NCBI GenBank assembly: GCA_021324365.1
Contig: JAJPJE010000053.1
Coordinates: forward strand, 1-64,000
DNA length: 64,000 nucleotides
Source of the DNA: Terriglobia bacterium
Lineage (GTDB): Bacteria > Acidobacteriota > Terriglobia > Terriglobales > Acidobacteriaceae
Reading direction: 5' to 3'
The translations under genes were made by a program, and so were the position numbers. Shown here one piece after another: positions 41,395-57,594 of this stretch. The notes beneath the pieces are model-generated. The model saw nothing but the letters and a program-made list of their open reading frames with translations, had not been told where the DNA came from and did no database searches. The first letter of the stretch is position 1. Every line of letters begins with the position of its first letter.

Positions 41395-41921
41395 TTACCT
41401 AGTAGGCTCCATCTTCAATGCGTCGTTGAAGCGGTTGAAGTAGTTGAAGAGCCCAATGGCGGCTGCGAGTTCGACGATCTCGCCTTCATCAAAGTGATTC
41501 CTCAGATGCTGCCAAAGTGCGTCATCGACATTGTGAGGTTCAAGCGTCATCCGTTCGGCAAAACGCAGCGCAGTCTTTTCTCGATCCGTGAAGTCGGTTC
41601 GTTTCTCGAATTGGGACAGGTTGTTGATCTGGTCTCCGAATAGCCGTGCCGTCTTAACAAGACGGTATGAGAGGCCAGTCAATACTCGCAACGGTTGATC
41701 TGGGATGTGCGCACGATGACAAGTTCCTTGAACTTAGCCGGAACCGTTCCTGTGTTCATGATGGCGCGGAAGTGGGCGATCATGGTTCGAAAGATTTCCG
41801 GCCGATGTGCGACCGTACGGAACATGTTGGGAACATTGCCTCTTTCATGCAAATAGACGTCGTAAATCTTGCCGGTTTCGGCATCGACTTCGTTTCGGTC
41901 CAGACGCGAAATTCGTTGCAT
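41395..41921 (-). CDS. AhpD/CMD family protein, candidate selenoprotein (CEYU), with a downstream frame break
   Basis: Start ATG 41921 follows GGAG. Codons 1-80 read as a carboxymuconolactone decarboxylase/AhpD protein up to SQINRC78EY. Codon 81 (complement of 41679-41681) is UGA, where relatives have the second Cys of CxxC. Reading on in the same frame gives LASHTVLLRRHGYSE, exactly the family continuation, so UGA as selenocysteine is the simplest reading. A hairpin with SECIS features lies at 41649-41665. After GYSE (near 41635) the family sequence (DQINNLSQFEKRTDF to KMEPTR) continues only in the -1 frame, as if one G were missing from GAGGACC. Total length with one base restored is 175 residues, normal for the family. 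Such enzymes use the Cys/Sec pair for peroxidase or thiol chemistry. If the frame break is real, it may be a pseudogene. Confidence 0.7.
41649..41665 (-). promoter_or_regulatory. Candidate bacterial SECIS element 1
   Basis: On the minus strand CCGUCUU-GUU-AAGACGG forms a perfect 7-bp stem with a 3-base loop whose first base is G. The loop is 20 nt after the UGA. GGCC just after the UGA can also pair with GGCU beyond the stem. The codons used here (TTG TTA AGA for Leu-Leu-Arg) are unusual in a genome that favours CTG and CGC, as if the structure were kept. Confidence 0.65.
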
Positions 41922-45475: not shown

Positions 45476-46936
45476 ATGCATATTGTTTTTGCGGCATCCG
45501 AGGCTGTTCCGTTCGCCAAGACGGGAGGTCTCGCCGATGTAGTCGGCTCACTACCTCCGGCCCTGGCGCAACTGGGACACAAACTTACAGTCTATTTGCC
45601 GCGATACAAGCAGGTAAAACTTCCGCCCACCGCGAAGACAGTCATTTCCAGCCTGACTGTTCCATTCGACGACAAGTACCGATTCTGCTCGGTCGTCGAT
45701 GGCGGCACCCACAACGGCGTTCAATACTATTTTATCGATTATCCGCCTTACTTTGAGCGCGATGCCTTGTACGGCACGTCATTGGGCGATTACCGCGATA
45801 ATGCCGAGCGTTTTGCATTGTATTGCCGCGCCGTGATCGAAGCGTCGAAGATCCTCGGCGTACCCGACCTTTTTCATTGCCACGATTGGCAATCGGCTCT
45901 TGTGCCGATACTGCTGCACGAGGTCTATGAAGACGATCCCGTTTTCCGGCGCGTTCCGTGTGTGTTCACTATCCACAACATGGGATACCAGGGACTGTTT
46001 CCTCCGGATATCTTGCCGCTGATCATGTTGCCATGGGATCTGTTCACTATCGGTAAGCTGGAGTTTTACGGAAAGGTAAACCTGCTGAAGGGCGCGCTGG
46101 TGATCTCCGATTTCGTCACCACTGTCAGCAAGAAGTACGCCCAGGAGATCCAAACAGCAGAGTTCGGTTTTGGCTTGGAGGGCGTGCTGAAAGCGCGCTC
46201 GTCAACTGTCGCGGGAATCTTGAACGGCGTGGATTACGGCGAGTGGAGCCCGGAACAAGACGCATTTATAAGGCAAAAATATTCGCGGGATGACCTGAGT
46301 TGCAAAGCCGAATGCAAAAAGGATTTGCTGGCTCTCTATGGAATACGCGATGCGAATCCGAGTATTCCGGTGATCGGAATTGTCGGAAGGTTTGCAGCAC
46401 AAAAGGGGTTTGACTTGATCGCGCAGGCTGCCGACCGGCTGGCGCGCGAGGAACTGGCTATTACGGTGCTTGGCACCGGCGATCGCGATTACGAAGACCT
46501 TTTCCGACGACTGGCGCGACAGTATCCGCAGAAAATCTCCGTCAAGATCGCCTACGACAATGCCATCGCTCACAAGATCGAAGCCGGCGCAGATATGTTC
46601 CTGATGCCCTCGCGCTACGAACCGTGCGGCATGAATCAGATCTACAGCCTGAGATATGGAACGGTGCCGATCGTGCGCGCCACGGGTGGTCTCGACGACA
46701 CGATCGAGCAATGGGACCCGGCTACGAAGCGAGGCACCGGATTCAAGTTCCAGGAATACACGGGGGAAGCATTGTTGGCGAGCGTCAGGCTGGCGCTGCA
46801 GGCATTCAAAGATGAGGCGAATTGGAAAACTCTGATGCGAAACGGCATGAGCAAAGATTTTTCTTGGATGGCGTCGGCGAAAGAATACGTGCGGGTATAT
46901 GAGCGCGTGCGCCAGATCAGGGCCGCAGCAGCTTAG
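45476..46936 (+). CDS. glgA: Glycogen synthase
   Basis: Start ATG 45476 (MHIVFAASEAVPFAKTGGLADVVGSLP) contains the KTGGL ADP-glucose motif; the frame is open upstream but that part is not family sequence. The 486-residue protein has a GT5 starch synthase domain (to about 240) and a GT1 domain with VLGTGDRDYEDLF and the C-terminal SRYEPCGMNQIYSLRYGTVPIVRATGGLDDTI. It elongates alpha-1,4-glucan from ADP-glucose. Its 3' end overlaps the stop of a transposase gene on the other strand by 4 bases. With otsA and transketolase it forms part of carbon storage and stress metabolism, but not a cluster. Confidence 0.95.
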   Translation: MHIVFAASEAVPFAKTGGLADVVGSLPPALAQLGHKLTVYLPRYKQVKLPPTAKTVISSLTVPFDDKYRFCSVVDGGTHNGVQYYFIDYPPYFERDALYGTSLGDYRDNAERFALYCRAVIEASKILGVPDLFHCHDWQSALVPILLHEVYEDDPVFRRVPCVFTIHNMGYQGLFPPDILPLIMLPWDLFTIGKLEFYGKVNLLKGALVISDFVTTVSKKYAQEIQTAEFGFGLEGVLKARSSTVAGILNGVDYGEWSPEQDAFIRQKYSRDDLSCKAECKKDLLALYGIRDANPSIPVIGIVGRFAAQKGFDLIAQAADRLAREELAITVLGTGDRDYEDLFRRLARQYPQKISVKIAYDNAIAHKIEAGADMFLMPSRYEPCGMNQIYSLRYGTVPIVRATGGLDDTIEQWDPATKRGTGFKFQEYTGEALLASVRLALQAFKDEANWKTLMRNGMSKDFSWMASAKEYVRVYERVRQIRAAAA

Positions 46937-47376
46937 TCTGTTACGGTCGCCGAACTCGCCCGAATTCCGTGCTTGATCAAAAAGCTCCGAAACTCCTCAT
47001 CAAACGTTCGACTGCGGTGACATTCCAATTGCTCGCGAAGGTACGCCGTCAACGCATCCAGATTCGAAGCACTGACGCTGAACGCCGCGTAGCCTTGTTG
47101 CCAAGCAAAGAAGTGGCCGGCTTCATTGACCTGTTTGGCTGAATCCGCTTTGAACGCGCGTACTGCGACCGCAACGCCAATCTTGGGCGGCATACACACG
47201 AGCAGATGAACGTGATCTTCGGCCGCGCCCACTTCAATCAATTCAATCCCATATTGCACGGCAACCGTCTTCAGGGCTTTGCGCAGCTCTGGCTCGATCG
47301 GAGGTTTGATCAGCTTGCGTGATTCTCGCGTGCCAAAAATCAGATGGACATAATTTCGCACGTATGGGTGTGACAT
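46933..47376 (-). CDS. IS200/RAYT-type Y1 transposase
   Basis: The 147-residue protein has the HUH single-strand transposase pattern: NYVHLIFGTRESR at the start, the metal-binding HVH in AAEDHVHLLVCMP, and Tyr with partners in LTAYLREQLECHRSRTFDEEF. It has the length and motifs of stand-alone Y1 (REP-associated) transposases rather than a complete IS605 with tnpB. I see no clear element ends. Its stop codon overlaps that of glgA. It could be the enzyme that handles intergenic palindromes such as those at 31, 20697 and 30665, but nothing links it directly. Confidence 0.85.
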   Translation of the reverse strand: MSHPYVRNYVHLIFGTRESRKLIKPPIEPELRKALKTVAVQYGIELIEVGAAEDHVHLLVCMPPKIGVAVAVRAFKADSAKQVNEAGHFFAWQQGYAAFSVSASNLDALTAYLREQLECHRSRTFDEEFRSFLIKHGIRASSATVTD

Positions 47377-57007: not shown

Positions 57008-57594
57008 ATGACCTGGATTAAAACCATCCCTCTTTCTGAAGCCAACCATAAACTCATTGACGCCATGCAGTCGCAGCGTGCGCTGTATCCGAAGGAATAT
57101 GTCACGCCGGTCTTCCCGCAGGACGACGGCACGGCAGGGATTGTCGCCTCGCACACGTTGATCCCGGAAGCGCTGTTTCATGCCTTCTCGACCTTTGGAG
57201 CGCTGATGTCTCCCGATCTGCCCCTGAGCCGCCGTCAGCACGAAATGATTGCGACCATGGTGTCGGTCACGAACCGATGCTTCTATTGAATCGAATCGCA
57301 CGCAGAGTTTCTGCGTAGGGTCACTCTTGATGAAGAAATGGTTTCAGCGTTACGAGCCGACTACGCCAGCGCCCCGATCACCCCCCAGGAGCGCGTGATG
57401 CTTGACTACGTGGTGAAGCTCACTAAGGATGCGACGAAGTGCTCGGTCGACGATCACGAGTCGCTGCGCGCCGCTGGCTTCGATGATCGCGGCATTCTGC
57501 AATCACGCTGATTGCTTCCTGGTTCAACTACATCAATCGGGTCGCGGACGCCTTGGGAGTGGGACGCGACTGGGCAACGTCGGCAACCCGCTAA
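57008..57594 (+). CDS. AhpD/CMD peroxidase-related protein, candidate selenoprotein (CFYU), with a late frame break
   Basis: ATG 57008 opens a CMD/peroxidase-related protein: [21 protein letters not shown] and [18 protein letters not shown]91FY. Codon 94 (57287-57289) is UGA at the place of the second Cys of CxxC. The same frame then continues for 70 more codons as family sequence: [37 protein letters not shown] and [10 protein letters not shown] hairpin with SECIS features lies at 57300-57316. Near 57500 the frame shifts by -1: the next part, [19 protein letters not shown] to the stop at 57592-57594, reads only if one A is restored in CAAATC. With that, the protein has 195 residues, normal for the family. 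It probably acts in peroxide or thiol defence. If UGA were a plain stop, half of the protein would be lost. The cytochrome c gene follows 66 bases on. Confidence 0.75.
57300..57316 (+). promoter_or_regulatory. Candidate bacterial SECIS element 2
   Basis: ACGCAGA-GUU-UCUGCGU forms a perfect 7-bp stem with a 3-base loop starting with G. The loop begins 17 nt after the UGA at 57287. The stem length and loop are identical to those of element 1 (41649-41665), though the stem sequence is different. Confidence 0.7.

Follow-up and report, generated by a model that had tools for sequence, protein, structure and literature searches.

The gene at 57008-57594 of the window (the whole 64,000-nucleotide stretch of DNA analyzed here) carries an in-frame UGA within the motif CFYU, and the family to which it belongs, the AhpD-like proteins of TIGR01926, almost certainly codes for selenoproteins, to judge from the sequences compared below. 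The first-pass annotation, made from the letters alone, had also arrived at a selenoprotein. That interpretation is supported by the conservation in orthologues of both the UGA and a SECIS-like hairpin shortly beyond it and by the presence in the genome of the machinery for selenocysteine, and neither of the findings that the annotation had named as fatal to it (orthologues that all end at the UGA, or a lack of selB or selC) was made. What the annotation overlooked is that this particular copy of the gene is short of one base.

By a reading of the sequence, the UGA is codon 94 of an open reading frame that begins at 57008 (V-T-N-R-C-F-Y-UGA-I-E-S-H). The annotation had family sequence continuing in frame beyond this codon, and so it does: another 73 codons follow without a stop, until read-through is ended by a second in-frame TGA, codon 168. 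The annotation had also carried the gene to 57594, and here it missed a change of frame. The remaining, C-terminal family sequence sits in another frame, so 57008-57594 is not a single reading frame. The features are collected in Table 1.

Table 1. Features of the AhpD-like UGA gene, with positions counted from the first nucleotide of the window.
Feature	Position	Strand	Evidence
AhpD-like selenoprotein gene, N-terminal portion (codons 1-93)	57008..57286	+	Translation; identity to orthologues
UGA at codon 94, predicted selenocysteine in CFYU (second active-site Cys position)	57287..57289	+	UGA in orthologues; Cys in distant homologues
SECIS-like hairpin: stem 57300-57306 with 57310-57316, loop GUU 57307-57309	57300..57316	+	Near-invariance at synonymous positions; pairing in distant homologues; published bSECIS constraints
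In-frame continuation, codons 95-167	57290..57508	+	Aligns to orthologues up to codon 165; synonymous variation with amino acids conserved
Site of 1-nt deletion, specific to this genome (CTGCAATCACG)	57500..57503	+	Distance from UGA to ITL
Second in-frame TGA, reached only through the deletion	57509..57511	+	Translation; orthologues in frame here
C-terminal family part in shifted frame, ending at TAA 57592-57594	57502..57594	+	23 residues identical or nearly so in orthologues

A sample of 399 genomes from the class contains close relatives of the gene in its own genome and in 57 others, mostly at 64-76% identity. The orthologues have a common start, M(T/A)W(I/V), and their 64-76% identity extends over 165 aa. 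Full alignments were made for 53 of the class orthologues, and every one of these has UGA at the position of codon 94, as do two frameshifted orthologues. A second collection was searched with patterns that left out the UGA codon itself, and among the best 80 of 274 matches the UGA was present in 80/80 loci and the frame continued to the C-terminus in 80/80; these loci come from Acidobacteriota, Gemmatimonadota, Latescibacterota, Zixiibacteriota, and KSB1. The class set and the second collection overlap in part, and the orthologues are not statistically independent. Removal of duplicates identical over the first 160 residues left 124 proteins, about 114 of them of this group.

Past the UGA, the sequence of the 53 orthologues evolves as coding sequence, with synonymous changes and conserved amino acids. 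The frames of the orthologues do not end at this codon, that is, but run on under protein-level selection, and the open reading frame that ends at 57289 is only part of a gene, as the annotation had it. No Cys was found at the codon 94 position among the 53 class orthologues and the best 80 of 274 matches from the second collection, which is mildly notable and adds modestly to what is known. The exchange of UGA with Cys that the annotation suggested looking for is present further afield: of the more distant homologues (29-43% identity), 19 have Cys at this position and one has Trp. The gene tree is poorly resolved, with strong support on 20 of its 121 inner branches, and for that reason we make no claim of horizontal transfer.

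The hairpin described in the annotation (ACGCAGA-GUU-UCUGCGU) lies where it was said to be, its 7-bp stem closing a loop that starts 17 nt past the UGA, with a minimum free energy (MFE) of -11.8 kcal/mol. These values fall within the published model of the bSECIS element, which has a loop of 3-9 nt, a stem of 4-16 bp, a G in the first two loop positions, a distance of 16-37 nt from the UGA, and an MFE of -7.5 or lower (PMC13188914). On its own, however, the hairpin is evidence of moderate weight and is not exceptional in the window. An equally strong hairpin lies downstream of 35 of the window's 1860 TGA triplets (1.9%), six of which (0.3% of the triplets) add the loop G and the right spacing, and the z-score of the fold is -1.17. 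In view of that 1.9% and that z-score, the hairpin was rejected as stand-alone proof. It is conservation across orthologues that lifts the observation beyond chance. The annotation had argued that a chance stop mutation would not be accompanied by a matched hairpin at the right distance; chance is indeed excluded by the orthologues, but the hairpin alone is weaker evidence than the argument took it to be.

Among the 53 orthologues, the identity of synonymous codons is near expectation almost everywhere (mean excess 0.06, SD 0.09) but rises to an excess of 0.53 in codons +4 to +9, those of the hairpin. The codons GCA, GAG, and TTT are used there in 53/53 orthologues, CAC and CTG in 52/53, and CGT in 49/53; the TAT codon directly 5' of the UGA is likewise found in 53/53. 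A SECIS sequence so nearly invariant across phyla is mildly notable, again a modest addition to what is known. Since the hairpin hardly varies, covariation within the orthologues is nearly uninformative. Homologues at 35-40% identity retain the hairpin, in some cases with G-U pairs or with a C-G pair turned into G-C, and when distant homologues are added, one pair has a true double change, a score that 7 of 500 shuffles reach. One homologue (L096, at G025:C29) has UGG (Trp) at the codon and has lost the hairpin, while a UGA-bearing relative of the same genus (L089) retains it. The UGG homologue is possibly a natural escape from dependence on selenocysteine.

When translated through the UGA, the protein matches TIGR01926, 'peroxidase-related enzyme', at 91.2 bits (curated cut-off 81.8) and also the Pfam family CMD (PF02627); an intact orthologue (L027) reaches 106.9 bits against TIGR01926. 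Membership in the equivalog NF041238, AhpD-related (seleno)protein, was considered and rejected: the domain and a CFYU-type motif (CFYUT) are common to both, but the window protein, at 41.8 bits, falls short of the 175-bit cut-off. By sequence profile and by the predicted fold of the intact orthologue (mean pLDDT 81), the best matches are the uncharacterized peroxidase-related proteins 2PFX, 3C1L, 2PRR, 2OYO, and 6K40, at about 25-36% identity, which have CxxC where the window gene has CxxU.

The placement of the UGA can be judged from the proton relay of AhpD, which comprises E118, C130, H132, C133, and H137 in the protein from M. tuberculosis and E36, C48, Y50, C51, and H55 in PA0269 of P. 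aeruginosa (PMC3141380). E79, C91, Y93, U94, and H98 of the window protein have the same spacing, are invariant in an alignment of 17 sequences, and include the pattern E-x11-C-x-x-C/U-x3-H (E79, C91, U94, H98). This correspondence puts the UGA at the second active-site Cys of CxxC. The likeness to M. tuberculosis AhpD (1KNC, 1GU9) lies in the spacing of the relay; its His132 stands where the window protein has Tyr, its topology differs, and its whole-chain match to the orthologue model is marginal (Foldseek E about 0.04). PA0269 (2O4D) has Tyr at the third relay place, as in the window protein, and reduces H2O2 only weakly (PMC3141380).

The genome (4.44 Mb in 125 contigs) has what is needed to decode UGA as selenocysteine: selA (551 bits), selB (379.5 bits), one tRNA-Sec with a UCA anticodon, and selD (368 bits; L216, contig C7:14120-15067). 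The selD gene has one in-frame UGA of its own (AAG-UGA-ASKLSP) and is otherwise open. Across the 399 genomes of the class, selA is present in 57 of the 58 with the UGA gene as against 233 of the 341 others (p = 4e-8), and the lone genome with the UGA gene and without selA is 85% complete.

Other genes of the superfamily in this genome also have in-frame UGA codons. The first, at 41397-41921 on the minus strand of the window, reads CEYU and has the hairpin CCGUCUU-GUU-AAGACGG, with its loop 20 nt past the UGA. At that codon its relatives carry either UGA or Cys, and compared with them it is short of one base soon after the hairpin. A third AhpD-like UGA gene (L022, contig C48:1-2007) is intact and sits beside selB on a small contig; it reads CHYU, and its hairpin is UCGCUUC-GUC-GAAGCGA (loop at +20). 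Elsewhere in the window are an Acido-Lenti-1 RNA (RF01687; 30665-30711, plus strand, 46.6 bits) and a gene with an IS200-like Y1 transposase domain (46933-47376, minus strand).

The missing base can be located by the distance from the UGA to an ITL motif: each of the 53 orthologues measured has 216 nt between the two and the window gene 215 nt, so that one base is lacking near 57501. The most parsimonious change is from AAA to AA in a short homopolymer. It is through this deletion that the second stop is reached, and a full-length open frame is absent from the copy in this genome. Since the orthologues are intact, that absence concerns the copy and not the family; with intact orthologues in 53 genomes, the gene is evidently functional elsewhere. 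The rest of the gene is undecayed. About 22-23 residues past the shift match those of orthologues exactly or almost exactly, and with the hairpin also intact, any lesion would be very recent. Programmed frameshifting as a means to rescue the C-terminus was considered and rejected, as there is no shift at this place in any orthologue and no slippery motif was seen.

Perhaps, then, this is an ordinary selenoprotein gene in which a base was dropped by an assembly or sequencing error. The lack of other decay, the match of the residues past the shift to those of orthologues, and the parsimony of a change within a homopolymer all speak for such an error, to which we give an even chance. Other parts of the assembly speak against it. 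Across the genome, 54 domains of ABC transporters and kinases, which lie in about 70 kb of open frame, show no frameshift, and a domain scan found the domains of the window's genes mostly complete, whereas both of the window's UGA genes are shifted. The comparison (two of three UGA genes frameshifted versus none of 54 domains, p = 0.002) is post hoc and sets accessory genes beside conserved domains. Two orthologues from the same bacterial family (L094 of G386 and L095 of G382) are also frameshifted, in their case upstream of the UGA, which brings the frameshifted orthologues to 3 of 13 in that family versus 0 of 44 elsewhere (p = 0.01, post hoc); selA is missing from many of the genomes examined in the same family. 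It is possible that recent decay of accessory selenoprotein genes, or else assembly error, lies behind the deletions, and the chances that the organism itself has an intact copy are about even. An assembly error would mean that the gene is normal. If the deletion is real, the product would be without its last helix, and the copy would probably be non-functional or a very young pseudogene.

The deletion unique to this copy, the one in the window's other UGA gene, the 70 kb or so of other open frames without a shift, and the two frameshifted orthologues of the same family might also be read more radically, as signs of a dying gene whose UGA is a nonsense mutation and whose frameshift is additional damage. 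This is very improbable. The part concerning the UGA is excluded, because all orthologues examined have the same codon and the sequence beyond it is under coding selection; furthermore, the sequence past the deletion is still fully conserved, the hairpin is intact, and 53 genomes have intact orthologues. That the UGA is decoded as another amino acid (e.g., Trp), through suppression or an altered genetic code, can for practical purposes be set aside: the homologue with UGG at the codon might suggest it, but that homologue is without the hairpin, 19 distant homologues have Cys as against that one with Trp, the genome has tRNA-Sec(UCA), selA, selB, and selD, the hairpin is conserved, and UGA is the terminator of 6 of the 30 long open reading frames in the window, hence also an ordinary stop, which argues against any general change of code.

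If the UGA is read as selenocysteine, then by the precedent of known families SelB, with GTP and Sec-tRNA-Sec(UCA), would bind the hairpin 17 nt past the UGA, and selenocysteine would be delivered to codon 94. The selenol would occupy the place of the second Cys of the AhpD CxxC, within the E79/C91/Y93/U94/H98 relay. A peroxide or disulfide substrate would probably be reduced there, and C91 may resolve the intermediate as a selenenylsulfide. The product is probably a CxxU AhpD-like redox enzyme, either a peroxidase or a disulfide reductase; the genome neighbors examined gave no pointer to its substrate or reductant.

The gene belongs to a bacterial selenoprotein family, of antioxidant type, that is already catalogued. 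AhpD-like CxxU selenoproteins were first reported from the Sargasso Sea (PMC1088965), were abundant in an ocean survey (PMC2398784), and appear as 'AhpD-like protein, TIGR01926, CxxU' among the prokaryotic selenoproteins of a 2026 review (PMC13188914). As here, the catalogued family scores above the TIGR01926 cut-off and has selenocysteine at the second CxxC position with a bSECIS downstream. The present group, drawn from Acidobacteriota and several other phyla, differs in that none of its copies examined has Cys and that its SECIS is nearly invariant, and the copy in this genome differs further in being frameshifted. No description of the acidobacterial group was found in the literature searched.

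Tentatively, this AhpD-like subfamily may be one that cannot give up selenocysteine: it occurs in several phyla, none of the copies examined is a Cys orthologue, and its SECIS is frozen in both sequence and shape. In one family of Terriglobia, many of whose genomes are without selA, the gene would then be decaying through frameshifts and not through replacement of selenocysteine by Cys. We lean somewhat against this idea. If true, it would suggest a chemistry in which Cys cannot replace selenocysteine, or else a sequence-specific recognition by SelB. The group in any case lends itself to a clean comparison of what has to be conserved in a SECIS, with a frozen hairpin set against free synonymous variation and a UGG homologue that has no hairpin. 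Gene callers that treat UGA as a stop would cut such genes short (at 93 residues here). With the UGA form present in 58 of the 399 genomes sampled from the class, counts of redox selenoproteins in soil Acidobacteriota may be too low.
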